Assembly: GCA_903837605.1 (NCBI GenBank)
Contig: CAILVF010000045.1
Coordinates: 1 to 64,000, forward strand
Reading direction: 5' to 3'
DNA length: 64,000 bases
Source of the DNA: an uncultured Bacteroidales bacterium
GTDB taxonomy: Bacteria > Bacteroidota > Bacteroidia > Bacteroidales > FEN-979
Part shown: positions 22 to 14,686 of the stretch, one piece after another
Layout: every line of letters starts with the position of its first letter
How positions within the stretch are numbered: position 1 is the first letter of the stretch
Made by a program: the position numbers and the translations under genes
The notes under the pieces: model-generated
Told to the model about the DNA's origin: nothing
Database searches by the model: none
Seen by the model: only the letters and a program-made list of their open reading frames with translations

Positions 22-54
22 GAAAAGAAAAAGAAAGCCCCGGTTTCCCGGGGC
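22..54 (-). terminator. Rho-independent terminator after radC
   Basis: A 7-bp GC stem (37-43 with 48-54, loop TTTC) is followed, on the minus strand, by a pyrimidine tract with T-runs (22-36). It lies just past the radC stop and would end the minus-strand transcript there. Confidence 0.75.
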
Positions 55-61
55 CCGAATT

Positions 62-802: not shown

Positions 803-914
803 AGCTGATTAGTTTTAAGCAGCGCTGTTGGCCGCGGTGAGTAAATGAAATTTGCCGGTGGAAGCATGCCCTGAGAAACTTTTAAGCAAAGGTTCAGGTC
901 AGATTGTTGATAAG

Positions 915-965
915 AATCTGAATGAACCCGAAGGGCGACAAGCGCCATCAGGAGGTCGCCTTTAG
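915..965. repeat. Stem-loop repeat, copy 1
   Basis: A 9-bp stem (931-939 with 955-963) closes a 15-base loop, and the 3' side carries AGGAGGT (950-956). A diverged second copy lies at 1396-1446 with the same spacing from AATCTGAA to AGGAGGT (35 bases). On the minus strand the block reads as codons for KGDLL...VALRV.SD, and several differences from copy 2 fall at third positions, so it could be a decayed coding sequence or a structured RNA/DNA element. Confidence 0.6.
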
Positions 966-1080
966 TGAGAAACAGTTTAACCGGGCATACCTTTGTGAAT
1001 TTCGGATTACTCTTTGGGCAGGTTTTTTGCAACTTTTTCCTAAACAGTTGCCCGGATACTTCCTTTTGAGCACCAGCGAG

Positions 1081-1114
1081 CATATAAAAACAGGCAGTCA
1101 TTTCTGACTGCCTG
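1081..1114 (-). terminator. Rho-independent terminator after the 54-aa gene
   Basis: A perfect 10-bp inverted repeat (1091-1100 with 1105-1114, loop TTTC) is followed on the minus strand by TTTTT and AT-rich sequence (1081-1090). It sits 20 bases past the stop of the small gene at 1134-1298. Confidence 0.8.
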
Positions 1115-1133
1115 CTCTGTGCATTGATTTGTT

Positions 1134-1298
1134 CTAACAGGAGAACTGGCCCTGGAATTCGTTGAATTCCCAGGTGAACTTTTCAGGTTCAGAAGCCATA
1201 AGTTCTTCAGAGTATCCTGGGTAGTAGATCTGATCCATTTCATGGATAAACATTTCTTCGATCGACTGATGACGGGTGGTAGCGGCTGTAGTTTTCAT
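1134..1298 (-). CDS. Small acidic protein, 54 aa, function unknown
   Basis: An open frame of 54 codons begins MKTTAATTRHQ and ends EFQGQFSC. The product is rich in acidic and aromatic residues (EEMFIHEMDQIYYPGY, FTWEFNEF), has no signal peptide or membrane segment, and ends in a cysteine. I do not recognise the family. Support comes from a clear ATG, biased amino-acid content, and a strong terminator 20 bases downstream (1081-1114), which makes it a self-contained transcription unit. It lies between the large terminase and radC at the distal end of the element, a position often used by accessory genes. It is a short candidate gene only. Confidence 0.6.
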   Translation of the reverse strand: MKTTAATTRHQSIEEMFIHEMDQIYYPGYSEELMASEPEKFTWEFNEFQGQFSC

Positions 1299-1395
1299 AG
1301 ACGTTTGAGTTAAGGTTAGTAATGAAATTTTTTAACGCCAAAGGCTTAAACCGAGAATAATAAATAATGTCAAGGGGGTAGGTCACGATTGGAAC

Positions 1396-1446
1396 AATCT
1401 GAAAACACTCGAAGAGCGACTATTTCTTGCAGGAGGTCGCCCTTTA
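1396..1446. repeat. Stem-loop repeat, copy 2
   Basis: This is a diverged copy of the element at 915-965, about three quarters identical by eye. GCGAC (1416-1420) pairs with GTCGC (1436-1440) around a 15-base loop, with AGGAGGT at 1431-1437. In the frame matching KGDLL, stop codons lie directly upstream, so no protein can start there. Confidence 0.6.
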
Positions 1447-1548
1447 CAGTTTTAAGCTACTATCTCTTAAAGCGAATTATTCGTAAGGTAACTTTGTAGC
1501 AAAATTTCGAGCTAAACCGTGGGCTGGCCTATCGGGGTTTCTTTTTTG

Positions 1549-1589
1549 GTACTTCTTGCTTTGACCAGGGCGCTCAAAGAAAAAAGTAC
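1549..1589. repeat. REP-like hairpin A
   Basis: Sixteen-base arms (1549-1564 and 1574-1589) pair with two mismatches around a 9-base loop. The arm resembles hairpin B (shared CTTCTT.CTTTG) and matches the style of dispersed palindromes common in Bacteroidota intergenic DNA. A possible third, poorly kept copy lies at about 2-36. Confidence 0.6.
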
Positions 1590-1602
1590 TGCAATTGCAG
1601 TA
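1587..1602. repeat. 16-bp perfect palindrome
   Basis: TACTGCAATTGCAGTA reads the same on both strands. It abuts hairpin A. It could be a dimeric protein-binding site; no other support. Confidence 0.5.
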
Positions 1603-1631
1603 AGACCGCTAAATCAGGGTGATTTCTTTTT

Positions 1632-1670
1632 GCTTCTTTCTCTTTGCACCGTTATCAAAGAAAAAGAAGC
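1632..1670. repeat. REP-like hairpin B
   Basis: Fifteen-base arms (1632-1646 and 1656-1670) pair with one mismatch around a 9-base loop. Arm sequence and loop size match hairpin A, 80 bases away. Confidence 0.65.
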
Positions 1671-2040
1671 CGGGATGAATTGGTTATCAATCAAATAACC
1701 TGATTTTTCCCGGTTTTAACCCTTCTCTCCAAAAAAAAAGTCGTAATCTTCTCTTTTGGAAGATATTAAAGGTGTCTGCACCGCCTTTATCTTTCAAAAT
1801 TCGTCTAAAGACCACGCCCCGCCCTATCCTTTTTTGCGTGTCTGTCACAAACCTGTTATACGATATATGAAACGCTCGTATATAGGTACATTCATACGTT
1901 TGTATCAATGTACGGCAACCTCTGACAAACGATCATAAGGCAAGGCAATGCCTTAGTTCAAATAAAGGCACAATGCGCCTAAAGGCTTTAATTAAGTAAA
2001 AGGGTAAAAGGCAGGCCGGCAGGCAATCTGCTCCCCTATG

Positions 2041-3546
2041 CTATCGATTCAGGAATATAAGTTCGTTTGAAGGAAGTTGATCCCCAACGGACTGAAAGAA
2101 CATCCAGTAATACAGATTGTCCACTGCATCACTAAGGTCCGTGGCTTTCCATCTGGGCTGATCCACCCGGCGTTCGGATCGTTTATCCTTTTTGAACTCA
2201 TCGGCAAGAATAGGTGCATTGTCCATTGAAAAGAACACTTCCATAGCGTTGTTCAGATTGACTTTGAATCTTGGTACTGAAGGAAAATCTCCGCTAAGGA
2301 ACCGGTGCCAGAAGTTAAACTTATCCATATGGGAAGCTTCAAAGAGTTCTGCACGCAAGTAAACTTCCCAACCGGCTTTGATAAGCCAATCAACGACATC
2401 ATCGAAATAGCTTTTGCGGCTTGCCGCATCGTTCTTACGCTGTCCATCGCTCCCCCCATACAGATAGATCACACGTGTAGCATGATGTTCATAGTACTTG
2501 ATGAACATCTCAACAACGACTTTAAGAGTTTCATTCTCGACAAAGAAGTTTTTGATGATAGGGAACTCATTGATATCACGGTGCCACTGGCTTACGATCA
2601 GGCAATTCTGAGTAGTACCGAAATCGAAGGACAGGTACAAGGGTTCATAGGTTTTGCAATCGGCATCGCCACGGCAGTCCTGTAAGGTCTTCCTTGAAGA
2701 GTCCTGATCCAGTCGGTCATAATAGGAATAATCGTAGGAATTATAATACCCATGCTGCTTTTCGATAAGCAGCGGGTAGAACTTATTGACGTTTGCTTTC
2801 CTACGTTTGTTCAGGACTTCAAGATCATAGATCACCTGTGGCAACACCCGTTTAAGGTCTCTGAAATACTGCGTTCCGAGAATATGCACATTCTCATAAG
2901 CCGAAGCTTCAATATAGAGATACTGCTTTGGAAACTTGTCCTGCAGGGATTCGTACTCAAAAACCCAGTCACCATCAGATGTCAGTGGCATGGAACCCAG
3001 GAAAAGGGTGCCATGATGAAAACGGATATGTCCGTAACGGTCCCGGTTTCCACGGTTTGCAGGAAGCACATCGCTGTCGATGGCTGATTTCTTAAGTTTT
3101 GTTGCTTCATCGAAGATCATTCCGTCATAGGAACCGCTTCGGGCCATTTCCGGCCTGTCGAAGGAATTGAATTCAAGAACAAAGCCGTTCCAGAAATGGA
3201 TGCAGTTGGTATAATCTAGCGGCGGCTGATGGGGTTCATCCCACTGAAATTTACCAGACGCTTTATGACCGACAAAATAATGGATCCCCCTATACAAACC
3301 GCGGCGCTCCCAATGGTCGATGATTGGAGGCAGTGATTTGGTGCGGATATGGAAATACGTCAGTCCGTTAAGAGAAACCTTGCCCCGGGGCATCGCGGCA
3401 AGGTACTTGATGACTTCATCAGCGATGATGGTTGTCTTTCCTACTCCACGTCCACCGATAAACATTTTATGAGGCCGGGAGTTGATCTTGATGACCAGCT
3501 GCGGGAAATTATAATAAGGGGCCGGCTTAATCTGCATTACTTCCAT
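2041..3546 (-). CDS. Phage terminase large subunit
   Basis: The 501-residue product has the two-part layout of TerL, the packaging motor that drives DNA into proheads and cuts it. The N-terminal ATPase has a Walker A motif GGRGVGKTT (31-39) and a Walker B motif GMIFDEAT (142-149, D146/E147). The C-terminal RNase H-like nuclease begins with YLSFDFGTT (first acidic residue D308). Length is normal for TerL (450-600). It is the last gene of the capsid/packaging operon, overlapping by 20 bases the small-terminase-like gene upstream. A TerL placed after the capsid genes is the reverse of the usual tailed-phage order. Identification is by motifs; the subfamily is not assigned. Confidence 0.85.
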   Translation of the reverse strand: MEVMQIKPAPYYNFPQLVIKINSRPHKMFIGGRGVGKTTIIADEVIKYLAAMPRGKVSLNGLTYFHIRTKSLPPIIDHWERRGLYRGIHYFVGHKASGKFQWDEPHQPPLDYTNCIHFWNGFVLEFNSFDRPEMARSGSYDGMIFDEATKLKKSAIDSDVLPANRGNRDRYGHIRFHHGTLFLGSMPLTSDGDWVFEYESLQDKFPKQYLYIEASAYENVHILGTQYFRDLKRVLPQVIYDLEVLNKRRKANVNKFYPLLIEKQHGYYNSYDYSYYDRLDQDSSRKTLQDCRGDADCKTYEPLYLSFDFGTTQNCLIVSQWHRDINEFPIIKNFFVENETLKVVVEMFIKYYEHHATRVIYLYGGSDGQRKNDAASRKSYFDDVVDWLIKAGWEVYLRAELFEASHMDKFNFWHRFLSGDFPSVPRFKVNLNNAMEVFFSMDNAPILADEFKKDKRSERRVDQPRWKATDLSDAVDNLYYWMFFQSVGDQLPSNELIFLNR

Positions 3547-4159
3547 CAGTCAGTGCTTCTGTTTTGGCTACATCCGTCATTAACATATCCATGTAATCTT
3601 TAACGGTTGAGTTATCGATGACCTGTTGAATTTTCTCAACAACGGAGAGGATTTCCCTCTGGGCCTTATCATCAATCATTTTGAAATACGGACTGTTGAC
3701 AAAATTGATAGACAAGGAAAGCAACTGCACCGGAGGCTGGATCTTTGAAGGATCTGGCAGGTCCTGGTCTTCTTTATCCAGGTTATTTGCTTTGGTGATG
3801 CGTTCCAGGGCTTTTCCAATACCATCCAAATCCTTTTTAATAAAAGCCATTTGAAGATAGTCAATGGACCATTGTGTAACAACATAACGTAAGCCTTTCT
3901 TGGTAGCTTCCCGAAGGTCACCGAATAACATTCTGGCATTTACAATGTCACGGTAAGCCTGAGTTTCACTGATATTAAAGGTTTTCATCAGCATAGCTGA
4001 GATCTGCTTATCACTGCCGACCTTTCCCAGGTAAAATGTAAAAGCAGCCTGCCAGCGGCACTTCACTTCTTCATCATGGGCAGAAAGTTCATATCCTGAG
4101 ACGTAGTGTTTGCGGATACGTTCAATTGCCGTGTCTTCTTCTAGTTTCCAAACATTCAT
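3527..4159 (-). CDS. Putative small terminase / DNA-binding packaging protein
   Basis: A 210-residue, mostly helical protein. Its first part contains a helix-turn-helix-like stretch (SDKQISAMLMKTFNISETQ, about 49-67), and the rest is charged helices. It lies directly upstream of the large terminase, overlapping it by 20 bases, and overlaps the 90-aa gene upstream by 4 bases, so the three are translationally linked. The position, HTH and size suggest a DNA-recognition partner of the terminase. Sequence alone does not prove this; it may instead be a second small subunit next to the protein at 4156-4428. Confidence 0.55.
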   Translation of the reverse strand: MNVWKLEEDTAIERIRKHYVSGYELSAHDEEVKCRWQAAFTFYLGKVGSDKQISAMLMKTFNISETQAYRDIVNARMLFGDLREATKKGLRYVVTQWSIDYLQMAFIKKDLDGIGKALERITKANNLDKEDQDLPDPSKIQPPVQLLSLSINFVNSPYFKMIDDKAQREILSVVEKIQQVIDNSTVKDYMDMLMTDVAKTEALTDGSNAD

Positions 4160-4428
4160 TTGTCGTCCATTTTAGCGTTTTCAATAAGCTTTGTTGCAAA
4201 GGCCTGAGCCGGTGAAGAACCATTTGCAGCCAGGTCGAATATTGCCTTTCGAAGTTCTGCATCACGCAGTAGTCGTCCTTTTTTAAATGCCCTGTCGGCC
4301 CGTGGATCGTCAAGGCATTTCTCAAACTGCAACGGGTCAAGCTCCAGGATAGATGCAATTTCATCCTTACTGAACATCAGGCCGCTATACTGTTCTATCT
4401 GTGATAAGAGGTCGTCATTTATTTCCAT
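4156..4428 (-). CDS. Small-terminase-like HTH protein
   Basis: I take the ATG at 4428, giving 90 residues (MEINDDLLSQIE), because it overlaps the stop of the upstream PLD gene as TAATG, a sign of translational coupling; a longer start at 4467 is possible. The sequence has an N-terminal helix-turn-helix (FSKDEIASILELDPLQF) and a C-terminal stretch GRLLRDAELRKAIFDLAANG followed by SSPAQAFATKLIE. From memory, this kind of stretch is common in small phage proteins near terminases, where it fits a DNA-binding TerS-like role. The link to packaging rests mostly on its place in the operon. Confidence 0.55.
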   Translation of the reverse strand: MEINDDLLSQIEQYSGLMFSKDEIASILELDPLQFEKCLDDPRADRAFKKGRLLRDAELRKAIFDLAANGSSPAQAFATKLIENAKMDDK

Positions 4429-5009
4429 TAAAAAACACTTTGCTCGTTTAATTCTTTCATGATCCAATACCGGTGATGCTCTGCAACTTTGGGATCCGTA
4501 TGGATATCCCCGGCTTCAATGCGTGGATTACGGGTATAATTAGCTGATCCGACAATGGCAATGCTCCAGGAATCATTCATAATACAGGTTACTTTGGCAT
4601 GGCATTTCGCCGGTTTGATATTAGTAGTTATCTGCTGCAGGAATTGCAATTCGGCAGGCTTACGCACTCCGTTGCGGTAATCAAAGATTCCGTGTAGTTC
4701 CAGGATATGACCCTGCTGAATGAAATTATACAATTGACGGACTGCATATTCTGAGATTGCCCAGGTAGTGAAATACACTTTGGCAGGACCGGTCGTCTGC
4801 AGCAGGTAGAATAACAAATCATGCGTGGACCAATCACCATTAGAACTATAACTAATGCATTCACCCTGGTTGATCGTACCGATTACTTCCTCCAGCTTTT
4901 GGTTTGCTTTGCCTATCACCACCCGGATCTTCTCCTTAGTTCTGACTGCCTTGATTACATCGGCAACAGGCTTTTCTTTCTTCAGGTCAGAGAGGTTGAA
5001 CAGGCTCAT
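4428..5009 (-). CDS. Single-domain phospholipase D-like (HKD) nuclease
   Basis: The 193-residue protein carries one HKD motif near its C-terminus: HAKVTCIMND, then the SIAIVGSANYTRNPRIE strand typical of PLD-family nucleases. Single-motif members such as Nuc act as dimers, two motifs forming one active site that cleaves phosphodiester bonds. The N-terminal half (1-60) has no match I know. It is embedded in the packaging operon, overlapping the gene upstream by 4 bases and sharing a TAATG junction with the next. It could trim or resolve packaged DNA, or serve defence or host-DNA degradation. The motif is clear; the substrate is inferred only. Confidence 0.75.
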   Translation of the reverse strand: MSLFNLSDLKKEKPVADVIKAVRTKEKIRVVIGKANQKLEEVIGTINQGECISYSSNGDWSTHDLLFYLLQTTGPAKVYFTTWAISEYAVRQLYNFIQQGHILELHGIFDYRNGVRKPAELQFLQQITTNIKPAKCHAKVTCIMNDSWSIAIVGSANYTRNPRIEAGDIHTDPKVAEHHRYWIMKELNEQSVF

Positions 5010-5716
5010 GAGTTAATGTTCCTTTCAATCTGATTCAATTCCAGCTGATATTTGACCAGCAGGTTTTGATGAATGGTCCGTGTTGCGTCGGTTCGGGCAT
5101 CACGGATCAGTTTCTTTTCCCTGGTCACATAGGTTCTAAGCGTGGTACGGCGTTTAGCAACATCAAAAGGTTTAGAACTATCCCATTTGTGTATTGGGAA
5201 AACCTTGGCCGGTGGTAATACTCCATGCTTATTATAATGATCAAGGCGGTTATACATATCATCCAGGATATCGCCGATTTCAAGGATCCTCAGGGCATTG
5301 AGGAGTCGGATGGGTTGATCAACCAGTTCAAGGGTAGCATGAAGGCTATCCCATTCCTTGAGGAGCATAATCTTTTGCTGGATCATCTGATCGATCTCAG
5401 GAGTATTTTGCCTGCGGATCACACCGGAAAATGCTCCCCCGGTTGTCTGCGATGAAATCGTATTAACAGGTAATGTACCGGTGTTTAAAGGTGCAATTCG
5501 ATCAATGTTTTCAGAAGTCTTAACAATCTTCTCAGAGGTTGCATTGACAAGAAGGCGCTCAAGTTCATAGATCAGGGTAGCCTTGCTTTTTGAGGTCGGG
5601 CCGCCAATGGAAAGAACCCGCATCAGTGATTTGCTTCGGCCATGTTTTAAATACAGTGCAAGACCGCACTGGTAATCCTGATCGGAACCAATCCAGGCTT
5701 TAATTTCTTCAATCAT
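5006..5716 (-). CDS. Conserved element protein, function unknown
   Basis: I choose the ATG at 5716 (MIEEIKAWIGSDQDYQCGL), giving 236 residues. The 45 extra codons upstream run through the terminator at 5811-5842 and are not plausible. The N-terminal part (IEEIKAW...GLALYLKHG...LMRVLSIGG...LIYELERLL) looks like a compact helical module that I have seen at the start of hypothetical proteins in Bacteroidota phage-like elements. The C-terminal part (about 120-236) is helical and basic, with HKWDSSKPFDVAKRRTTLRT. It overlaps the PLD gene by 4 bases. There is no portal-like feature. Role unknown. Confidence 0.65.
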   Translation of the reverse strand: MIEEIKAWIGSDQDYQCGLALYLKHGRSKSLMRVLSIGGPTSKSKATLIYELERLLVNATSEKIVKTSENIDRIAPLNTGTLPVNTISSQTTGGAFSGVIRRQNTPEIDQMIQQKIMLLKEWDSLHATLELVDQPIRLLNALRILEIGDILDDMYNRLDHYNKHGVLPPAKVFPIHKWDSSKPFDVAKRRTTLRTYVTREKKLIRDARTDATRTIHQNLLVKYQLELNQIERNINS

Positions 5717-5810
5717 TGCAATAGGGATAAATATTTGAACCTGAAAACAGAGTAAAGGGAATAACCATTGATCATGGAAGCGAAAGTAACCTCTCTGCAA
5801 TTGCACATAA

Positions 5811-5842
5811 AGGACAAAAGAAAACCCCAGCAAATGCCGGGG
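5811..5842 (-). terminator. Rho-independent terminator inside the structural region
   Basis: A 7-bp stem, CCCCAGC with GCCGGGG (5825-5842, loop AAAT, one G-T pair on the minus strand), is followed on that strand by TTTTCTTTTG. It follows the gene at 5883-6593 and would separate capsid expression from the packaging genes. Confidence 0.7.
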
Positions 5843-5882
5843 CTTTCCCACTAACCAACTACTAACCTATGAACTATGCACA

Positions 5883-6593
5883 CTACCAACTTTCGCTTGT
5901 GGGATCAAATGCAATTGCACCTTCATATATGGCCATCGGTGTGCTTTGTTTGCATTTGAAGGTGAACTTCGACCCTTTTTCCTTATCCACTTCTTCACCC
6001 CAGGTCGTATCGATATTGTCGATATGAGCCAGGTTGCACTGTTCACCGATCAGGTAACGCTTTGCGCTGGCGCAATTCTGTATGATGATAAGGCCTTTGA
6101 AGCTGATGCCGAACTGGGCTTTCCAGTTCTGAACAGCTTTTTCAATGCCGGGATAAAAACCTTCCAGGGAGATTTCAAACCCACCGCAGTCCTGGTTGGA
6201 ACCTTTCAGTACCTTTTCTGAAGGTTTGATCGTACCCTGGGTCATATAAAAACGGTGCATGAACTTTCCTGTTTTCATAGCGATGTCACCTATTATCGTA
6301 GATACATCGGTACCTGTCCCGCGAGGTGGGAACAGAGTCCAATCCACATCGGTTTCATGAATGAGGATAATCTCGCTTTTAATACCACCGCCGCTGCCGG
6401 CGGTTTCCCCTAAAGGCTTTGCCAGGTCAAAGAGCACTGAGAAATTCAATACACCCCTCTGGCGGGGGACAATCAGGCTGAAGGCTGTCAGGCCTACGGC
6501 AATGGGAAGCGGTGAAGCATCCAGGGCATAGGCAAAGACCGAGGCCGTGAGCAGGATCATCACCAGAGTAAACAACGTGCGAGCTATTTTCAT
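5883..6593 (-). CDS. Beta-rich structural protein with N-terminal hydrophobic segments
   Basis: The 236-residue product follows the major capsid gene by 38 bases. Residues 4-24 (ARTLFTLVMILLTASVFAYAL) and about 28-46 are hydrophobic, resembling a signal peptide or one or two membrane segments, which is odd for a cytoplasmic virion protein. The remainder is beta-rich. Its C-terminal 80 residues (GLIIIQN, RYLIGEQC, KFTFKCKQSTPMAIYEG) share a pattern with the gene at 8919-9446. The two may be paralogous tube, connector or vertex proteins. The structural role is inferred from position next to capsid and protease; the function is unproven. Confidence 0.6.
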   Translation of the reverse strand: MKIARTLFTLVMILLTASVFAYALDASPLPIAVGLTAFSLIVPRQRGVLNFSVLFDLAKPLGETAGSGGGIKSEIILIHETDVDWTLFPPRGTGTDVSTIIGDIAMKTGKFMHRFYMTQGTIKPSEKVLKGSNQDCGGFEISLEGFYPGIEKAVQNWKAQFGISFKGLIIIQNCASAKRYLIGEQCNLAHIDNIDTTWGEEVDKEKGSKFTFKCKQSTPMAIYEGAIAFDPTSESW

Positions 6594-6631
6594 TTTTACG
6601 TTCTCCTATTCGTTACTGATTACTCTGTGAA

Positions 6632-7579
6632 TTAAGAAGCCGGAACATAAGCAAACACGGCTTCCTGGATCCCGAATCCAACGGATTCATACCAATCGGC
6701 GAACACCTTGATCTGACGGTCAACGCTTTCGATGGTGATATTGGAAGCGCCTTCATTGCGGTTCATCAGCCGAATGAAGTTTTCCTTCGGAGTGGTGAAG
6801 ATGACATCTTTGCCATTCATTGAAGGAAGGGGCATCAGGGTCATGTTGCTGCCTTCGATTAGGTCTTTCATGCCGGTATAATTGGTATCCTGGCCATGGA
6901 GGTCCCTGCGCTTTTTATGGTAAGCGGCATACCATTTTCGGGAAAGGAACACTTCCATCGGGATATCCTGATAGAGATCGGCCACCGAAGCGGCAAACAG
7001 TTCGATCTCATCAAAGATATTGTCTGCGGTGAGAGCCGTCAGAGGGATGAAGTTCACGTTTGAATTGCCTGCAGTCTTGAGTTTCTCCAGGATCGTGATG
7101 AACCCATCCATGGATTTGCCGGTAGCCTGGGCAGTTCCTTCAACGGGGGCTTCATAGAAGCCTTTGCCGATCAGCTTCAATTCCCTGTTATCATTGATCT
7201 TAGGAAGGATGAGCTTTTCAATGATATACTTACTGATAGGCCACTGTTTGCGGTCCACATTTTCTGCGGCCATGAAGCCTAACCAGGAGTCCACGATATC
7301 ATCGGGGTACATTTCCCAATCGAACTTATGCCGCCTCTGCGGTATAGCGATGGGGGTGAAAGTTGCCGTTCCTTTGGGTGTCCATTTCTTCTGAAAACCC
7401 TGGACCATATCATCGATAACGGCTTTGGAAGCACGGTATTCCAAATCGGCTGAGGCGATGGTGGTCATATGCTTTTGGCTGACCGTGGCCTGCATGAGAA
7501 GCAGAAGGATATCCTTCTGGTTCGTTCCGATATAGGTACCGAAAGCTTCCCTCAACTGAGCTAATGAAATTTCTGCCAT
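6632..7579 (-). CDS. Major capsid protein, HK97-fold type (putative)
   Basis: The 315-residue protein sits directly downstream of the S49 protease-scaffold gene (26-base gap), the classic place of a major capsid protein. Its size is typical. The features I see are an N-terminal helical region (1-70), a tryptophan-rich loop (KKWTPKGTATFTPIAIPQRR), a central alpha/beta part with MEVFLSRKWYAAYHKKR, and a C-terminal beta part (IKVFADWYESVGFGIQEAVF) like the last strands of HK97-type shells. I recognise this as the style of Bacteroidota phage capsid proteins. The call leans on gene order and is not an alignment. Confidence 0.72.
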   Translation of the reverse strand: MAEISLAQLREAFGTYIGTNQKDILLLLMQATVSQKHMTTIASADLEYRASKAVIDDMVQGFQKKWTPKGTATFTPIAIPQRRHKFDWEMYPDDIVDSWLGFMAAENVDRKQWPISKYIIEKLILPKINDNRELKLIGKGFYEAPVEGTAQATGKSMDGFITILEKLKTAGNSNVNFIPLTALTADNIFDEIELFAASVADLYQDIPMEVFLSRKWYAAYHKKRRDLHGQDTNYTGMKDLIEGSNMTLMPLPSMNGKDVIFTTPKENFIRLMNRNEGASNITIESVDRQIKVFADWYESVGFGIQEAVFAYVPAS

Positions 7580-7605
7580 TGTGAAAAAAGATTTGCGTGA
7601 ATATT

Positions 7606-8886
7606 TTATTTACCTAAAAACTGTTCTGCGAGTTTATCGTGTCCGTACACGGCCTTAGCGGGATTTTCGCCGGTGATCTTATCGGCGGCTTTATCTGCGA
7701 TGGTCTCAGCCTTGGCATCTTCTGCCTTGAGATCTGCAAGTTCTTTACGGGTTGAGTTGTGTGCCTGCTGTTCGGCAGCCAAGTGATCAAGTGCCTGCTT
7801 CTTTGCCGAAGATTCTTTCTGAAGGCTGGCATCCAGATCCTCGTTCCTGGATTTAAGGGCAGCCATTTCCTGATCGAGCTGACCAATTCTCTCTGCTGTC
7901 ATTTCTTCAGCCTCGGCCTGATCGCCGGTGAAACCAAAGAAAGTCCTAAGGGTATTCCATTTTGCTGAAAATTTCATGGTATCATTATGTTTAGATTGAA
8001 CATTACTGTATTGCATTGCCAGGTTGGCTGTATAAGCAAGGGCTGATTGAAATGAGCCTATTTCATCAAGTAGTCCGGCCGCAATGGCATCTTGGGCAAA
8101 AAACATCTTGCCGCTTAAAGCGTCTTCGCTGACCGCAGGCCGGCACTCCCTGATGTGTGCTATAAATTTTTCATTGATCTTATCCAATACTTCTGTCCTG
8201 TACCCGTCATAATTGCCGGAAAGAACATCATTGAAATCCTTGTTCTTGTCGGTTGATAAGGTAGCCGTGAACTCATGGAACTTAACCCCAAGCTTTTCAT
8301 AGTAGGGTTTAAGATCAGCAAAGGCGAGCATCACTCCGATGGAGCCGATACGGTCCAGGTCGGATGAAGCAAATATCCTGTCCGATCCGGCGGCAATCCA
8401 TAGCGCTGCACTTGCACACAGACCTTCGACAAAAGAAACTACCGGCTTTGGGGATGATTTGACTTTATCGGCCAGAAGGTCTGTGGCCGACACCTGGCCT
8501 CCTGGTGAATCAATCAGCAGAAGCATTCCTGATATATTCGGGTTGCTATTCACCGCGTCGATCTCATCCATGATGGACATTGTGCCACGGGGACCGCACT
8601 CCTGATCATACTTCATGATCTCGCTGCGGATCGGGATAACGGCAATACTGCCTGCAGGAATGGATTCGTCCTTTAATCCGAAAGACTGATCAGGGGAACT
8701 TCCTGAGAGTGCAAATGATCTTGATTTTGCCCTTTCGATGGAAAGATCCCCCTGATTGATACAGCCACCATTAAACAAAGTGTGGATCAGGGATGCATAA
8801 TAAGCTGAGCGTTCATTATCGATCAGCCAAACAGAAGAAAGAATTTCATTTAAAAGGCGGTTCATTGTAACCGAATCAGGATACAA
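7606..8886 (-). CDS. S49-family prohead protease with scaffold-like C-terminal coiled coil
   Basis: Residues 80-285 form an SppA/ClpP-fold S49 peptidase domain: IDSPGGQVSATDLLAD (125-140), the catalytic-serine region GLCASAALWIAAGSDRI (155-171, S159) and DRIGSIGV (178-185). Residues about 325-395 are a charged coiled coil (EEMTAERIGQLDQEMAALK onward), and the C-terminus ends KLAEQFLGK. In HK97-like phages such a fusion first scaffolds the prohead and then digests itself, and the capsid gene follows, as here. The N-terminal 70 residues are extra. It is a 426-residue product. The protease family is certain; the scaffold role is inferred from architecture and position. Confidence 0.85.
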   Translation of the reverse strand: MYPDSVTMNRLLNEILSSVWLIDNERSAYYASLIHTLFNGGCINQGDLSIERAKSRSFALSGSSPDQSFGLKDESIPAGSIAVIPIRSEIMKYDQECGPRGTMSIMDEIDAVNSNPNISGMLLLIDSPGGQVSATDLLADKVKSSPKPVVSFVEGLCASAALWIAAGSDRIFASSDLDRIGSIGVMLAFADLKPYYEKLGVKFHEFTATLSTDKNKDFNDVLSGNYDGYRTEVLDKINEKFIAHIRECRPAVSEDALSGKMFFAQDAIAAGLLDEIGSFQSALAYTANLAMQYSNVQSKHNDTMKFSAKWNTLRTFFGFTGDQAEAEEMTAERIGQLDQEMAALKSRNEDLDASLQKESSAKKQALDHLAAEQQAHNSTRKELADLKAEDAKAETIADKAADKITGENPAKAVYGHDKLAEQFLGK

Positions 8887-8918
8887 TGATACTTCCGCAG
8901 TAAGGCTTAATAAAGGAC

Positions 8919-9446
8919 TTACGAAGTACCGTCGCCTCCAGGATCAGGGGGCGGGGTAACAATGATGGAATTGGCTGTACCGCCATAAAACAAGGCCGGT
9001 TGGGGAAATTCACCCTGAAAGGTAATCTGGTAACCGTTATAACCTTCAGGTTCCTTTGGTATCAAAAGCTTGGATGTTTTTTTCATGGGACAATCCGGAG
9101 TTCCGAAAATCCGCATGGTGCCGTTTTTATCCTTGGTTAGTACAATGATGCCTCGTTGATTCATCTTTCGAAGCAGAAGTTCAACCGAGGGTCGGTCTTT
9201 AGGAACCTGCATCGAGATCTTGTAAACGTACTTGGTTCCGGAAGTAGTTTCCTGTTCCTCTCCTTCAATCTGTATGGTTTCCGCTGTGGCATATAACGTA
9301 TTCCAGGATCTACCCAAGCCAAGGGCGACGGTTGCAGTCCAGGTATTCTTCGAATATACCAATGACAGAAGATCTTCCTTGAAAATCCAGTAGATCGGAT
9401 TTACTCCCCCAAAATTTATTCCTTCATGCACTGAAATATTTTCCAT
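8919..9446 (-). CDS. Beta-rich structural protein, paralogue of 5883-6593
   Basis: A 175-residue protein upstream of the protease gene (32-base gap). It is beta-rich with no membrane segment. The C-terminal half (GIIVLTKDKNGTMRIFG, then GYQITFQGEFPQPALFYGG) shares its pattern with the protein at 5883-6593: a G-IIV strand, R-x-(F/L)-I-G, a T-F strand, and P-x(3-5)-Y-x-G. It ends in a proline/glycine tail (TPPPDPGGDGTS). The pattern of strands is reminiscent of tail-tube or head-completion proteins, but I cannot assign one. It starts the structural operon after the regulator at 9536-10018. Confidence 0.6.
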   Translation of the reverse strand: MENISVHEGINFGGVNPIYWIFKEDLLSLVYSKNTWTATVALGLGRSWNTLYATAETIQIEGEEQETTSGTKYVYKISMQVPKDRPSVELLLRKMNQRGIIVLTKDKNGTMRIFGTPDCPMKKTSKLLIPKEPEGYNGYQITFQGEFPQPALFYGGTANSIIVTPPPDPGGDGTS

Positions 9447-9535
9447 GACTTCAATTTAATTTTCACTTTTTTAAACAAACGGCCCCACAAGACCCTATGC
9501 GACCTCACGCGACCATCGAGGGACAATAGGACCAT

Positions 9536-10018
9536 TCAACTGACAAGAAATTTATGCTTTTTTCTAAGCTTAAGCCTGCGTCGATTTTTACGATACCGAT
9601 CATAATCTTTCTTCATCATATCCCAGGATTCACCGGGCATTGAGTACCGATCAATAAACAATTCAATGGATTCTTTGCGCGAGAAACCAAGGATTATGCT
9701 TTGATTTACCTGTTCATGGAAGACACATTTATAAAATGATCGGATGCGCTCGACAAAGGAAGTCTGTGCCCTCCTGGACAGATACCAATAGGAATAAGCA
9801 TTTTTATTCTCCATGTAGGGAAGCTGGATTTTAAGGTTATTTTCTCCATAATCTTCCTCTTCCCAATTTTTAGGAGGCTGGGTAACCAGGAACGTCAATT
9901 GAAAATTGAAATCGTGATTTCTTGGAAACTCAATCGGAGATGTTGTTTCGAAATACGATTCAAGGAACCTGATCAGATAAGGCTCACACTCACAACTTAC
10001 AATCATCGGTGAAGGCAT
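9536..10018 (-). CDS. Possible phage regulator with C-terminal HTH-like region, function unknown
   Basis: The 160-residue protein begins MPSPMIVSCECEPYLIRFLE. The C-terminal half (GFSRKESIELFIDRYSM, then MMKKDYDRYRKNRRRLKLRKK) is a helix-turn-helix-like stretch followed by a strongly basic tail, suggesting nucleic-acid binding. A TATATTTG promoter motif lies only 4 bases before the ATG (10023-10030), so the message may be nearly leaderless. It lies between early replication genes and the structural operon, the place of a late-gene activator; that role is inference. I recognise similar unnamed proteins in Bacteroidota phage-like elements. Confidence 0.55.
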   Translation of the reverse strand: MPSPMIVSCECEPYLIRFLESYFETTSPIEFPRNHDFNFQLTFLVTQPPKNWEEEDYGENNLKIQLPYMENKNAYSYWYLSRRAQTSFVERIRSFYKCVFHEQVNQSIILGFSRKESIELFIDRYSMPGESWDMMKKDYDRYRKNRRRLKLRKKHKFLVS

Positions 10019-10022
10019 AGAG

Positions 10023-10030
10023 CAAATATA
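10023..10030 (-). promoter_or_regulatory. TAnnTTTG -7 promoter motif
   Basis: TATATTTG on the minus strand matches the Bacteroidota -7 element and ends 4 bases before the ATG of the gene at 9536-10018. Confidence 0.5.
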
Positions 10031-10055
10031 ACTGGGTGACTACTTAATATAAAGG

Positions 10056-10217
10056 TCAAGGATTGATCGATTTATAGCCTTTGACAATAAGGCCGATAAT
10101 TTCACCAAGTTGATGAGGAAACAGGAATGGATAAAGGATAAGTCCCAGCAGCAGCATAAATACCAGGAGGTTCAGTATGATATCCTGAATCTTTTCAATC
10201 TTGAGCAGGATCTTCAT
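10056..10217 (-). CDS. Small single-span membrane protein, 53 aa
   Basis: An open frame of 53 codons begins MKILLKIEKIQDIILN and has one strongly hydrophobic span (IILNLLVFMLLLGLILYPFL, about 13-32), then a short tail ending GYKSINP. Its start overlaps the last 23 bases of the HTH gene at 10195-10455, which suggests co-translation. I do not recognise the family. In a phage-like element such a protein may be a holin, a toxin or a membrane anchor, but no lysozyme-like gene is nearby to support a holin role. Coding potential rests on the clean hydrophobic span and the overlap. Confidence 0.55.
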   Translation of the reverse strand: MKILLKIEKIQDIILNLLVFMLLLGLILYPFLFPHQLGEIIGLIVKGYKSINP

Positions 10218-10455
10218 GGTCCATCTGGATTAACGGGAACTTGATACTGGTCTGGTCATTGGAGAATTCAATAGTGACTTTGAAGCCAATGGCACGGCTG
10301 AGAAGGAACAGCGCTGAAATATCGATATCATCGGAGTTAAGAATTTTCCGAAGGGTCTTTTCAGAGATGCCTGCAGCTGTTGCCACTTTTTGTTTAGAAT
10401 ACCGGTTCTGTTCAATGGTATTCTTAATGAGCTGGTTGATCGTGATTGAAGACAT
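10195..10455 (-). CDS. XRE-type helix-turn-helix regulator
   Basis: An 86-residue protein whose first 60 residues are a helix-turn-helix: SKQKVATAAGISEKTLRKIL (20-39) gives helices 2 and 3. The C-terminal part (ALFLLSRAIGFKVTIEFS) resembles the tail of antitoxin-like XRE proteins. It is the second gene after the origin-like iterons, between the 80-aa gene (3-base gap) and the small membrane protein (overlap). It could be the element's repressor or an antitoxin. DNA binding is well supported; the target is unknown. Confidence 0.75.
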   Translation of the reverse strand: MSSITINQLIKNTIEQNRYSKQKVATAAGISEKTLRKILNSDDIDISALFLLSRAIGFKVTIEFSNDQTSIKFPLIQMDHEDPAQD

Positions 10456-10457
10456 TG

Positions 10458-10700
10458 CTATGATTTTTTGATGAATACTCTGTTTGCTTCGATAAATGGT
10501 TGCAGGAATGCTGAAGTCAGCCGCTCGGACACGATACAGACCTGGTACTTTTCCTTGTCAGCATACCGGATCAGGAATTCCAGACCTATCCGTTTTACCC
10601 CTTTTATATGAAAATCTTCCAGGGTGGCCAGGATGAAATCGCCAGGAACCGAATCAAAATATTCCCATCCATACTGATCTATTTTCTTGAATTCACCCAT
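10458..10700 (-). CDS. Hypothetical small element protein, 80 aa
   Basis: This 80-residue protein (MGEFKKIDQYGWEYF... ending VFIKKS) has alternating strands and helices, no membrane span and no motif I recognise. It is followed after 2 bases by the HTH gene and lies just downstream of the iteron/AT-rich block (10748-10848), so it is the first gene of a short operon (80-aa, HTH, membrane protein). With an antitoxin-like HTH next door it could be a toxin partner; this is only suggested by arrangement. Confidence 0.5.
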   Translation of the reverse strand: MGEFKKIDQYGWEYFDSVPGDFILATLEDFHIKGVKRIGLEFLIRYADKEKYQVCIVSERLTSAFLQPFIEANRVFIKKS

Positions 10701-10747
10701 TTGAAAAAAAAATTAAAAAACCGTTTGCCCAACACGAAAAACCGCTT

Positions 10748-10848
10748 CCTACAGTCCTACAGTCCTACAGCTACCTACAACTTCCTACAGCTTCCTACAC
10801 TCTATATTATTGATTTTTAATATTATAATCTATTTTGTAGGACGTAGG
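10748..10848. other. Origin-like iteron cluster with AT-rich core
   Basis: Six CCTACA repeats start at 10748, 10756, 10764, 10774, 10784 and 10794, mostly spaced by 10 bases. A 36-base stretch with only three G/C follows (about 10801-10836), then two inverted copies, TGTAGG (10836-10841) and CGTAGG (10843-10848). Iterons in helical phase facing an AT-rich unwinding region, right after the primase/helicase gene, are what a replication origin looks like. Tandem operators are the alternative. Confidence 0.6.
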
Positions 10849-10891
10849 ATCGAAAACATTGAAAAATCCGGAATCTCATTTCTAAAAAAAT

Positions 10892-12997
10892 TTAAAAAGG
10901 CAGGTCTTCCTCTCCTGTAATACGTTGTGACCGCTGCAGGTTAACCTTTAATGCCTCATAATCAAATGTATAGCAACTGCTGATTGAATCCTCGAACCGG
11001 TAGCTGCTCACCGATCCGATATAACTGGGATGATGCTTGATATAATGCATCAGGCTGATCAGGTCCACTCCGTTTTTTCCAAACTGTTTGCGGTGACCTT
11101 CCATATATAGAGGATGGATCCTTGAGAATCGGATGAACAGAACCACTTTCGGCTCAGGATAATTCAGTATCTCCGCTTGAGAGTTCTTATTTGTCACCTT
11201 GATGGTGGCAATGGATTTCACTTCAAAATCCTTACCGGCTTCGATGAGTTTATTATCCAGCAGGTACTCGGTCATCATCCAGAAATTGGATAGGGATTCG
11301 CTCGATGAAATCTGCACGGATAGCTCGGTGATCATGATCTTTGCCTGGGAATAGATCTCATCAAATGTGAAATTGAGGTCTAGGGGCAGCATGGACTTAA
11401 GTACGATCTGAACAGGAGCCAGTATGATGCAGAAATTTCTCACCAGACGTTCTTCGAACTGTTTTCCTTGCCGGGTAAGTTCATCTTTGATCTTATCCAT
11501 CAGGAAAGAAAAGGCCATGCTGAACCCCTGATCAATTTCCTTACGGTATTTAAGGATTTCACCGATCAGGCTGCTTAAGCCTTGTTGCTCATAGCCTTTC
11601 AGTTCATCATAACGGGCAAGTTGCTCAGCAGAATAGATCTTCCTGATGAACGAAAGCAGGATGGACCTGGTAAACAAGGCATTGTCATCGGTTGTCGGCA
11701 AATATTGACCGCTGATCAAGGAAGAACCGTTGACTTTGGTTACTTCCGTGCGGTTATCCCTGGTCATCTTTCCTTTTTCATGACCCATGCCGTCAAAAGC
11801 GCTTTTCAGCGTTTGAATTCGTTTGGGATCAATATCATTGGAGTATTCATCCCACCAGCAAATGGCGTTCTTTATCCTGGATAACTTCCTATGGAAACCA
11901 ACTTGTGTTCCTGAGCTTAAATTAAATGCGGGCATATTGTTAAAAAATAGGTTTGACAAGGACCAGGCAAGCTGTGATTTGCCGGATTGTTTCTCACCGA
12001 ATAGAAAGAGGTGAGGGAATATTTTATATTTCTCATAGATCAGATCCCTGAAGACCGTCGCTATGGCAAAGGCAATAGCTATTCTGGCATTGGATCCATA
12101 GACATCCATCATGAGTTTGGTCCACTCTCCGAAGGTGATCGGGGACTGCTGCCAGATGAAATAGCGGTCGCTTTCATAATCGTCATCGTCTTCGCGAACC
12201 TCATTATATACACGGGAGAATGCCGGGGAGAAATACTTTTGTTTTGCATGCTCTGTGATCCCAAACTCATCCACCGGCTGCCAGGTACCATTAAAAATTC
12301 CATTGGCAAAGGCATAGAAACCTTCCCTCTGCCATCCCAGCGTTCTTAGTTCATTGCAGACCGGGAACTTATTGGCAATGTGGTCCAGGATCTTAAGAAA
12401 ATGAAATTTCGTTACGAAGAACAGGAAATTGCCTTCATTGATCACGGCGGCCTGGAATTGTTCAATGCTGACAAAGCTTTTGGATGGTATGTCAATAGTT
12501 CTATGGTAATCGTCTTCATTGATGATCTCCACCAGGCGTTTATTATCGGTTTTTGAATATATATGGAACAGGGGGCGGATGATGAAATTCGACACTCTAA
12601 CAGGACCATCCTTGGTTAAAAAGTAAAAGCAATTGCGATGTTCGAAGAATCCCAGCTTTCGGGCCGACATTCTGTCAATGTCGCCGAAACCCTCAAATTC
12701 ATCCTTGCTATCCTGCTTAATTACAGTGACTGAATCCTTCAAGGTCTTAATCCTGTCGGTGATTGCTTTTTTGGATATTTTATGGCGCTTTGAGATCTCC
12801 TCAACAAATATGCTTTGCCTTATAGGATCATCCATTTTAAAGATCAGATCGCATATTTGATTGATCACCTCACCCCGACGGGTCAGGTTTTTACCGGCTT
12901 CTACCAGGGCTGTATCTGCATACAGAAGTACTTCTTCTTCATTGAGGATCTCAATATTTGGCAGTTCGATTCCCTGGTTATGGGGTAATTCATTCAT
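10892..12997 (-). CDS. Phage-type primase/helicase (replication initiator ATPase)
   Basis: The 701-residue protein has a short N-terminal segment like the C-terminal helicase-binding part of DnaG (DDPIRQSIFVEEISKRHKIS, about 56-75), then a superfamily 3/D5-like ATPase with Walker A GEKQSGKS (334-341) and a Walker B-like WWDEY (381-385). Such proteins drive replication of Bacteroidota phages and integrative elements. The C-terminal 200 residues include another helical region. The origin-like iterons lie just past its stop (10748-10848), matching a cis-acting initiator. A zinc-finger primase core (TOPRIM) is not visible, so priming activity is doubtful. Confidence 0.75.
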   Translation of the reverse strand: MNELPHNQGIELPNIEILNEEEVLLYADTALVEAGKNLTRRGEVINQICDLIFKMDDPIRQSIFVEEISKRHKISKKAITDRIKTLKDSVTVIKQDSKDEFEGFGDIDRMSARKLGFFEHRNCFYFLTKDGPVRVSNFIIRPLFHIYSKTDNKRLVEIINEDDYHRTIDIPSKSFVSIEQFQAAVINEGNFLFFVTKFHFLKILDHIANKFPVCNELRTLGWQREGFYAFANGIFNGTWQPVDEFGITEHAKQKYFSPAFSRVYNEVREDDDDYESDRYFIWQQSPITFGEWTKLMMDVYGSNARIAIAFAIATVFRDLIYEKYKIFPHLFLFGEKQSGKSQLAWSLSNLFFNNMPAFNLSSGTQVGFHRKLSRIKNAICWWDEYSNDIDPKRIQTLKSAFDGMGHEKGKMTRDNRTEVTKVNGSSLISGQYLPTTDDNALFTRSILLSFIRKIYSAEQLARYDELKGYEQQGLSSLIGEILKYRKEIDQGFSMAFSFLMDKIKDELTRQGKQFEERLVRNFCIILAPVQIVLKSMLPLDLNFTFDEIYSQAKIMITELSVQISSSESLSNFWMMTEYLLDNKLIEAGKDFEVKSIATIKVTNKNSQAEILNYPEPKVVLFIRFSRIHPLYMEGHRKQFGKNGVDLISLMHYIKHHPSYIGSVSSYRFEDSISSCYTFDYEALKVNLQRSQRITGEEDLPF

Positions 12998-13397
12998 TCG
13001 GTTGGATTTGTTTTATAGGGTTCGATTGCTCTTCTCTCTTTGCCAGCATATCATCAACATTTTTCACGATTTCCTCAAATCGGCCATTGAGTTTCATCTC
13101 ACGAACAAGCTCAAAGGCTTCGAGCCGCTTGGACAACTCAATATTCCAATCCCGAAGCCACTTGTTTTCTGCTTCAAGGATTTGGTTTTTCCTTAAGATC
13201 CATTGAACGTCCTGTATATAATCCCAGGCAAACTTCATCACTTCAGCCACCTTGACCCAGAACCGGTAAGATTCGGTCTCACCGGTTTTGGCCTTCTGCT
13301 TGGAAAGAATGCCATTGACCTCGGCAATTTTATCAAGCAGCATTTCCCCTGCTGATTCATAGCAACTATGGGTGATCCTTTGAGAATCTTTACTCAC
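12990..13397 (-). CDS. Hypothetical coiled-coil element protein, 135 aa
   Basis: The 135-residue product is almost entirely helical and highly charged (EMLLDKIAEVNGILSKQKAK; ILEAENKWLRDWNIELSKRL). It overlaps the primase start by 8 bases, so the two are co-expressed. No domain is recognised. It may be a replication accessory or a packaging coiled coil; position favours the former. Confidence 0.55.
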   Translation of the reverse strand: MSKDSQRITHSCYESAGEMLLDKIAEVNGILSKQKAKTGETESYRFWVKVAEVMKFAWDYIQDVQWILRKNQILEAENKWLRDWNIELSKRLEAFELVREMKLNGRFEEIVKNVDDMLAKREEQSNPIKQIQPNE

Positions 13398-13442
13398 TGC
13401 TGAAATGGTTATTATGGATTTGAGGAACTTGTGCTGATTGAA

Positions 13443-13643
13443 TTACTCGGATAATATGTCTACCTCCAAAGCATCCATTAACTGTTGTAGGCGATGTGTT
13501 TGCTGCAATAGTTTATCCCTGATCTCAAAAGGCAGGTTACCTGGCGCTTCAGCAGTTGCTTTAAACATTACACATAATTGTTCGTAAGCTTGTATTGTTA
13601 ATCGTTTATCCGGAATGGACATAGCTGAGAATGTTTTCATCAC
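13443..13643 (-). CDS. Hypothetical small element protein, 66 aa
   Basis: A 66-residue helical protein (MMKTFSAMSIPDKRLTIQAY... ALEVDILSE) overlaps the preceding gene by 4 bases. No motif is recognised. Its place in a tightly packed early operon supports it as a real gene. Confidence 0.5.
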   Translation of the reverse strand: MMKTFSAMSIPDKRLTIQAYEQLCVMFKATAEAPGNLPFEIRDKLLQQTHRLQQLMDALEVDILSE

Positions 13644-13891
13644 AATGCTTTCCTTAGATGTGAAACTCTTTCTTCTTTTTCTTCTATGATTTTCGTAATC
13701 TCTTCCCCAAGTTTAATGGCTTCGTCGATGATGGTAGGATTGTAATCGTCCTGGTCAGGGTCAAGACAACGATAAATGTATTGCTGTGTAAACTTGATAT
13801 TTTTCTTAATTAAGCGCGATCTTATCTTTTGAGCGCTTCCTCGGGGCAGTTTATCTCTGAGTTCTGCAGCTGACTCTTTACTGATTCTCAT
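13640..13891 (-). CDS. Small helical DNA-binding-like protein, 83 aa
   Basis: An 83-residue protein. Residues 10-50 (ELRDKLPRGSAQKIRSRL, then FTQQYIYRCLDPDQDDYN) look like a short helix-turn-helix module. I have seen small proteins with this LPRGSAQKIR and IYR...DP pattern in Bacteroidota phages and elements. The C-terminal part is an acidic helix (EEITKIIEEKEERV). It probably regulates early transcription. The 89-base gap to the HTH gene upstream contains no clear promoter. Confidence 0.55.
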   Translation of the reverse strand: MRISKESAAELRDKLPRGSAQKIRSRLIKKNIKFTQQYIYRCLDPDQDDYNPTIIDEAIKLGEEITKIIEEKEERVSHLRKAL

Positions 13892-13980
13892 AAATAGTAG
13901 TTTGGTTTAGTTGGTTTGGTTAATTTGGGTTTATTGGTAATTCATAGGCCCCCATTACTGGAGATTAATCAATTGATTAA

Positions 13981-14160
13981 TCAGCACTTTTTTAAGTCCT
14001 CCATTACTTCGCTTTCAAAGTAAAAAAGCTTGCCCCCAAGTTTATGGTAGCGGACAATGCCTGCTTTGCTCCATCTATGGAGTGCAGGTCGGCTGACCCC
14101 GATCATTTTACAGATATAGTATGCTGTAACAGGTTTCTCGATTACTGACTTTTCGCTCAT
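13981..14160 (-). CDS. Excisionase/MerR-like HTH protein
   Basis: I take the ATG at 14160 (MSEKSVIEKPVTAYY), 59 residues, because a promoter motif at 14197-14204 lies just upstream and a longer start at 14199 would begin inside it. The fold is a winged helix-turn-helix of the Xis/MerR type: VTAYYICKMIGVSRPALHRW, then KLGGKLFYFESEVMEDL. Such proteins bend DNA and control excision or early transcription of integrative elements. Its position at the outer end, next to the att-like site (14687-14710), fits an excision function. The integrase would be expected at the other end, outside the window. Confidence 0.75.
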   Translation of the reverse strand: MSEKSVIEKPVTAYYICKMIGVSRPALHRWSKAGIVRYHKLGGKLFYFESEVMEDLKKC

Positions 14161-14196
14161 AGGCTGTATAAAGTTTTTATAAATTTTTACAAGCGG

Positions 14197-14204
14197 CAAA
14201 TGTA
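14197..14204 (-). promoter_or_regulatory. TAnnTTTG -7 promoter motif
   Basis: TACATTTG on the minus strand lies 37 bases before the start of the HTH gene and supports the shorter start at 14160. Confidence 0.55.
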
Positions 14205-14686
14205 TTAAACCGGAAATTACAAGGATGATAAAGTTATCAACAACAGTCTGATTACTAACGAATTAGTAAAGCAATAGTAACCTCAGACTAATCAGTTATT
14301 AACCTTTTAGCCCGAAACAGATTATAGGATAGCAAATTAGGGAAGCTGAATTTTCTTGAAAAAAAATCATAAAAAAATTAGCCGGGGCAAAATTAATTAT
14401 GAACAGATTCCAAGCAAGAAATTGTCAAAAATGGGGGTAAAACAAGGAGACACCAATAAAATTGAGGGGTCTATGTGAAATCCGGATAGAAAGGAGGGAT
14501 TAAGTACTAAATCAATTCTAAATTTGTAAATGAAATTAACTAAATTTGACAAGGAGATACAGATAAGAACAGGAAGAGTATAATATTTACACTGAATGGG
14601 TTGCAGTGCCAAAAATCGCCTAAATAAATGCCTGTATTTTTAATTGCCCTCTGGAAACACCAGTAAAATCAGGTAGTCTGGAAAGC
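14205..14686. other. Non-coding left flank of the att-like site
   Basis: An AT-rich, non-coding interval between the first early gene and the tRNA fragment. At 14246-14295 nested inverted repeats occur: CTGATTA (14248-14254) with TAATCAG (14289-14295), GTCTGA (14246-14251) with TCAGAC (14283-14288), and TACTAACGAATTAGTA in between. These could be operators or recombination-protein sites. No other feature is seen. Confidence 0.5.

Follow-up and report, generated by a model that had tools for sequence, protein, structure and literature searches.

A very probable replication origin beside the helicase gene of a Bacteroidales phage, with repeats that tend to change together with one helicase residue

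Does a short run of repeats beside a helicase gene mark the place where a mobile element of Bacteroidales begins its replication? Positions 10748–10848 of the window, the whole 64,000-nt stretch of DNA that was analysed and the beginning of contig C45 (103,385 bp), raise this question. On the + strand, six CCTACA units start at 10748, 10756, 10764, 10774, 10784 and 10794. Their spacings are 8, 8, 10, 10 and 10 nt, so the last four lie 10 bases apart and not the last three, as the original prediction had it; its count of six units agrees with these coordinates. Read in the direction of the helicase gene, these six direct iterons (10748–10799, − strand) are TGTAGGAAGC TGTAGGAAGT TGTAGGTAGC TGTAGGAC TGTAGGAC TGTAGGA, with a spacing of 10-10-10-8-8. 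Next to them lies an AT-rich stretch that is a candidate unwinding element (10800–10835, no strand); its predicted length of 36 nt is correct, and it contains four G/C rather than the three first counted. Beyond it are two inverted iterons (10836–10848, + strand), TGTAGG at 10836–10841 and CGTAGG at 10843–10848, exactly as had been described. The array had also been placed directly after an initiator-like gene, and it does begin 43 nt past the stop of a gene for a 701-amino-acid (701-aa) protein (10892–12997, − strand), between this stop and the start of an 80-aa open reading frame (ORF) that is conserved in close relatives (10458–10700, − strand). In gene direction, the order is the stop of the 701-aa gene, 43 nt, the two inverted units, the AT-rich stretch, the six direct TGTAGG units and the 80-aa ORF.

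The special feature of the array is the clustering of CCTACA, not its overall number, as this 6-mer shows no enrichment across the 64-kb window (19 observed versus 19 expected). With both strands counted, GTAGGA occurs in seven copies downstream of the gene; of 200 dinucleotide shuffles of 700 nt only one matched this level, and none of 60 shuffles of 1,200 nt reached it. The pattern CCTACA-N2..4-CCTACA-N2..4-CCTACA has a single site in the 4.15-Mb genome (97% complete), namely the array, which gives four overlapping matches. Rfam returned no match for positions 10400–11100 at E values up to 0.1.

Absence of the repeats from close relatives was one of the outcomes named as able to refute the original prediction, and the array was found at the same place in all five relatives checked (L002, L003, L004, L005 and L007; distinct, at least 82% identity, record reaching the site). 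The spacing of 10-10-10-8-8 is identical in L002, L004, L005 and L007, with L003 left out of this comparison as a duplicate of L002, and a degenerate version of the array is present in L006, at 63% identity. Those close helicase relatives that come from named genomes belong to metagenome-assembled genomes labelled Bacteroidales (L007–L009) or Bacteroidetes (L010). We then consider the wider family. Of 258 loci searched, 255 had a helicase match and 212 were kept, having at least 250 nt downstream and a distinct last 250 aa. A downstream array that none of 60 shuffles reached was found within 1,200 nt in 127 of these 212 loci, and the best 6-mer had at least seven copies in 121 of the 212 downstream stretches. 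Both flanks were available for 178 loci, and in these a count of seven for the best 6-mer was reached in 97 downstream stretches versus none upstream. For later comparisons we defined array loci by a count of at least six that at most 1 of 60 shuffles reached (n = 130); 107 of them could be registered on a (T)GTWG core and 23 could not.

The remaining 85 of the 212 loci had no array passing the 0-of-60 test within 1,200 nt downstream. The layout is not always tidy, because at least five of these loci (L006, L014, L034, L035 and L112) carry degenerate or mixed arrays when inspected by eye. In L034, L035 and L112, CGGGG and TGTAGG unit types are mixed in the same eight-unit layout, and these arrays are possibly caught between two specificities. 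Neither Cellulophaga phage Ingeline (L067) nor a Microcystis phage (L071) has an array that passes in the 1,200 nt downstream of its helicase relative. The four Porphyromonas gingivalis phage loci that we examined (L068, L069, L070 and L075) likewise carry a helicase relative and no significant downstream array, and the origin of these phages may lie elsewhere.

Within the clade of the 701-aa protein, 14 of the 20 array loci have a direct spacing of exactly 10-10-10-8-8 or 10-10-10-9-8. The exceptions are L018, with one extra interval of 10, L022, which lacks the last unit, and L115, L118, L122 and L123, whose gaps in spacing are explicable by missing or diverged units. The AT-rich spacer has a mean GC content of 0.12 versus 0.40 in the 3′ flank in 19 of these 20 loci (L020, in which no inverted unit was called, was excluded). 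Across the array loci, the lowest-GC 30-nt window has a mean GC content of 0.10 versus 0.29 inside the helicase gene and is lower in 128 of 129 loci.

The kind of element that carries the array is clearest in another genome, G006, in which the helicase and array module adjoins a tRNA-Arg gene at about 113.6 kb of contig C24 (L531–L534). Fifteen bases of the 3′ half of this tRNA recur at about 159.5 kb, next to a tyrosine integrase ORF, and between the repeats lie the counterpart of the terminase of the window, a tape measure gene and a tail-fibre gene. This is a tailed prophage of about 46 kb and apparently a complete copy of the element. The 15-base repeat can be assigned as its attachment site only tentatively, because another 15-base match of equal E value exists there. 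The related copy in the window spans positions 29–14,492 and is apparently cut by the start of the contig. The G006 copy also carries cargo (L532:11012–16377) consisting of a Vsr endonuclease, two C5 cytosine methylases, an NgoFVII-like restriction enzyme and an ArdC-like protein. Several contigs end inside the helicase gene, namely C7 and C8 of G005 (L008, L009, L012 and L032) and C8 of G001 (L010 and L023); two of the contig ends in G005 fall at the same codon (422), a pattern expected from near-identical copies in one genome.

The 701-aa protein, our proposed initiator, is by fold an MCM-like AAA+ helicase of the Cch and SaPI Rep type. Its AlphaFold2 model (mean pLDDT 85.6) matched SCCmec Cch (Z 24.3, rmsd 4.7, 466 residues aligned) and SaPIbov1 Rep (Z 23.5, rmsd 4.0, 448 residues, 11% identity), both within residues 112–690; the next fold matches were MCM helicases at Z 15.8 and below, mostly over residues 215–570, the AAA part. 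Cch was also the best sequence-profile match (5dgk, E 4.5e-8). Residues G334, G339, K340, E384 and R444, which we read as Walker A, Walker B and arginine finger, are invariant across 46 aligned sequences. Pfam gave no useful match at E values up to 1, and no DUF927, primase, Rep_3 or P4-type domain. The protein had been called a primase/helicase: the helicase half of this name is borne out by the Cch and SaPIbov1 Rep folds, and the primase half does not fit, because only an N-terminal stretch (profile positions 3–102) resembles part of DnaG (E 2.3e-4) and no primase catalytic domain was detected in the protein. Class-wide and phylum-wide genome tallies, in which 348 and 389 of 395 genomes matched, were set aside as uninformative on the helicase family because in nearly all of those listed the match is confined to the N-terminal part of the query and falls in an ORF of about 650–750 aa that we read as host DnaG.

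At the C terminus, residues 567–683 (10949–11299, − strand) form a domain with a winged-helix-like order of elements in the model, which we propose as the reader of the iterons. Modelled alone (mean pLDDT 87.4), it places residue 674 early in the second strand of the final hairpin, and residue 665 should face residue 674 across this hairpin, judging from the strand limits. Foldseek returned nothing for the isolated domain at E values up to 0.001, and the PDB held no sequence match of value; its best VIA match was TcpK, with 88 residues aligned at a Z of 5.9, which is below the caution line of the tool. The low-confidence tail of the full model, residues 691–701, ends in GEEDLPF (10895–10915, − strand). 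This sequence resembles the tail of the host SSB, PEDDLPF, and may be a case of SSB-tail mimicry; 113 of the 212 relatives end in PF.

The repeat unit itself differs by lineage. Depending on the locus, the unit of the 701 clade is TGTAGGA, TGTAGGG, TGTAGGT, TGTTGGA, TGTTGGTC or TGTAGTT, and 19 W-G-N6-N7 types were found among the fully determined, TGTWG-registered units of the training and held-out loci. Units within a locus have a mean identity of 0.93 (269 pairs), versus 0.73 for units of the same rank in loci of different type (836 pairs). These comparisons indicate that the units of one array change together while the layout stays. As each lineage has its own unit, nearly uniform within an array, the origins of related phages should therefore be mutually orthogonal. 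A separate subfamily with Phe672, seen among the held-out loci, has TGTGTGCA units together with Arg674 (L410, L412, L413, L419, L421 and L424) and TGTGTGT units together with Asn674 (L328 and L330). Its units are apparently one base longer, and the base after the last G fits a pairing of Arg with C and Asn with T; L334 (Asn674, TGTGTGTGc) has no clear fit.

We looked for helicase residues that follow these differences in the 107 of 130 array loci whose unit was registered as (T)GTWG-N6. With overall identity removed, residue 674 had the top partial correlation with unit bases 6–7 (r 0.65; next 0.48; 656 columns). In the window, its codon encodes Ser (10976–10978, − strand) and base 6 of the unit is G; by the model, the residue lies in the β-wing of the C-terminal domain, on the second strand of the wing hairpin. 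In sample, G was paired with Ser in 58 of 60 cases, T with Thr in 10 of 15, A with Gln in 14 of 21 and C with Arg in 8 of 9, and a code of Ser/G, Thr/T, Gln/A and Arg/C was correct in 90 of 105. Exceptions to this code include L331, L044 and L178. The 23 unregistered array loci are mixed when judged by eye: part of them agree with the code and others, such as L066, L138 and L208, do not.

Since many of the loci come from few clades, the association might reflect shared descent only, with clades that share a helicase also sharing a unit. We built a tree of 124 loci (107 training and 17 held-out) from residues 110–560, which leaves out the C-terminal domain. On this tree residue 674 ranks first of 653 columns: base 6 changes on 15 branches, and residue 674 changes with it on 8 of these versus 1.3 expected (nominal p 3e-6). 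This result argues against shared descent; it is a re-ranking rather than an independent test, because the column had been picked from the training loci, which are also on the tree. Four of the eight co-changing branches obey the code: L114 (Ser to Thr with G to T), L127 (Thr to Ser with T to G), and L186 and a clade of eight loci, each to Arg with A to C. Three others lead to residues outside the code (L133, L180 and L246), and the last, L331, contradicts it. The other 7 of the 15 base-6-changing branches, some of them deep and ambiguous, have no change at residue 674, as shared descent would allow.

The base-6 rule was fixed from the training set before it was scored on held-out loci. Of 234 new loci with a helicase, 74 shared less than 90% identity with the training set across their last 300 aa, and 43 were left after mutual thinning, two of which (L350 and L456) have no usable C-terminal end. 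Arrays were present in 30, 17 were registered and 15 could be scored for base 6. The code was correct in 14 of these 15 and a guess from the nearest relative in 12 of 15, so the margin is small. L326 shares 96% identity with a training locus across residues 110–640; when it is removed, the code is correct in 13 of 14 and the nearest-relative guess in 11 of 14. The methods give different outcomes at L347 and L353, both of which favour the code, and an additional new locus, L541 (Thr674, GTAGTT units), agrees by eye. When relatives are capped at 50% identity, the nearest-relative guess drops to 50 of 105 versus 90 of 105 for the code, in sample. Weighing both sides, we regard shared descent on its own as an unlikely account of the association. 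The repeat tends to change with one helicase residue, and thus the initiator and its repeats appear to evolve together. This covariation supports recognition of the iterons by the C-terminal domain, in the sense of linked change, not contact.

Base 4 of the unit behaved differently. Residue 672, encoded in the window as Ile (10982–10984, − strand) next to units with A at base 4, is associated with this base in sample (Asn672 with T in 23 of 26) and ranks 3rd of 653 on the tree. A rule fixed ahead of the held-out test, in which Val, Ile, Ser or Thr at 672 gives A, Asn or Gln gives T and Gln665 overrides to A, failed there, with 11 of 17 correct versus 16 of 17 for always predicting A. Gln672 proteins account for five of the six misses, and four of these proteins have a PERF insertion in the hairpin; the sixth miss is L331. 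Residues 662–666, a hypervariable stretch after SYxG picked out by eye as a specificity loop, were likewise rejected, as residue 665 was only 156th in the tree count; in the correlation scan, residue 665 was the best column for base 4 (r 0.31). Mean correlations taken over whole domains were near 0 in all domains, and the C-terminal domain stands out in single columns only. On balance we lean, by a modest degree, towards a wing code in which residue 674 dictates the sixth base in all iterons of an array (Ser-G, Thr-T, Gln-A, Arg-C) and residues 672 and 665 share in base 4, such that one substitution followed by homogenization of the array would move a lineage to a new, private origin type and many mutually orthogonal origins would result. 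Such origin switching is perhaps driven by origin-targeting parasites or nucleases; Odn, in the part of the account drawn on here, targets origins for PLE (PMC8263062).

The array is intergenic and stands in front of the 80-aa ORF, and covariation with the helicase requires binding only, so a regulatory site bound by the helicase would fit it too. The array could then be an operator, with the helicase or a phage regulator controlling the 80-aa ORF onward, and no origin at all. We found a relative of the 80-aa ORF within 1,200 nt downstream in 20 of 20 loci of the 701 clade and in 10 of 19, 6 of 64 and 0 of 27 loci of the other groups. Because this amounts to only 36 of the 130 array loci, the array is not tied to the ORF; arrays were searched for nowhere but next to the helicase gene, which makes their proximity to it a matter of design. 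Where an upstream stretch was available (178 loci), the DNA in front of the helicase gene held nothing comparable. The arrays retain an AT-rich centre flanked by opposed units, and autoregulation does not preclude origin function. We therefore consider a pure operator quite improbable. Tandem short repeats also mark partition or centromere-like sites and phage packaging signals. A site of this kind seems very improbable here, as the unit follows a helicase residue and the neighbours on the far side of the array vary between families.

Our preferred reading, in which we have high confidence, is that replication of a Bacteroidales temperate phage starts at the array, where the 701-aa helicase would bind the TGTAGGA iterons, melt the DNA and load itself. 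That the element replicates from here with the 701-aa protein as initiator was the core of the original prediction, and the comparison of related loci supports it through the retained array, the fold and the covariation. From the array, its layout, its conservation beside the gene, the modelled helicase fold and the 674/base-6 association, we infer a series of steps comprising binding, melting, loading and recruitment. The C-terminal domain would bind the iterons, its β-wing reading the variable base of each unit, and helicase rings would assemble on the oppositely oriented iteron sets. These rings would melt the AT-rich stretch between the opposed iterons and load themselves as the replicative helicase, as proposed for SaPI Rep and Cch2. 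Priming and synthesis would come from host enzymes, possibly recruited through the SSB-like tail of the helicase; SSB tails recruit replication proteins.

Several known systems share parts of this arrangement. The initiators of iteron plasmids (Rep_3, RepA and TrfA) differ from the 701-aa protein, which has a helicase fold and no Rep_3 match at E values up to 1. P4 α is a primase-helicase with a C-terminal origin-binding domain and iterons. Longer phage relatives of the 701-aa protein are annotated as DNA primase, in line with P4 α, whereas the 701-aa protein itself has no detected primase catalytic domain or P4-type Pfam domain. In geminiviruses (Rep and iterons) and lambdoid phages (O and ori), type-specific initiators are paired with type-specific repeats while the layout is kept; these proteins are unrelated to the 701-aa helicase, and lambda has its repeats within the O gene, whereas the array (10748–10848) lies outside the helicase gene (10892–12997). 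TcpK of pCW3 is a winged-helix protein that, in the portion of the report used here, places a β-wing in the major groove and reads 9-nt tandem oriT repeats (PMC6137059). It is the best VIA match of the C-terminal domain, and it is a conjugation accessory protein rather than a helicase. The likeness is perhaps only a shared arrangement, because the Z is low (5.9). The match is weak, yet by analogy it suggests a mode of reading that agrees with the covariation.

The closest parallels are the helicase/iteron origins of SaPI and SCC elements, which are already known. In the part of the source on which we rely (PMC7581432), the C-terminal domain of SaPI Rep recognizes iterons directly downstream of its own gene, Cch2 of a resistance cassette binds three iterons downstream of its gene, and both Cch and SaPIbov1 Rep have a DUF927 domain. 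As far as that part goes, the 701-aa initiator shares with SaPIbov1 Rep its fold and the position of the iterons directly downstream of the helicase gene. The phage array differs in phylum and element type, and its initiator differs in sequence (11% identity) and in having no DUF927 by Pfam. Cch is the best match by both profile (5dgk) and fold (Z 24.3), whereas the Cch2 site, on the same partial account, has three iterons in a resistance cassette and the site described here has eight units around an AT-rich centre in a phage. Because the relation consists of the fold and a distant profile match to 5dgk, without DUF927, we say that the 701-aa protein works like SaPI Rep and Cch and do not call it a member of their family. 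Our searches of open-access literature showed no SaPI/SCC-type initiator-helicase origin in Bacteroidota, which is weak evidence of absence. The new parts are the Bacteroidota phage family, lineage-private units with a kept layout, and the link between residue 674 and base 6. If the array is the phage replication start, as it very probably is, sequence alone would often suffice to locate both origin and initiator in a broad group of Bacteroidota phages and prophages, and one residue would allow a partial prediction of the specificity of the pair. The evolution of origin specificity, in which initiator and repeats shift while replication is retained, would become testable with natural variants, which would also supply orthogonal origin sets, and the initiator helicases of SaPI and SCC elements would extend to Bacteroidota.
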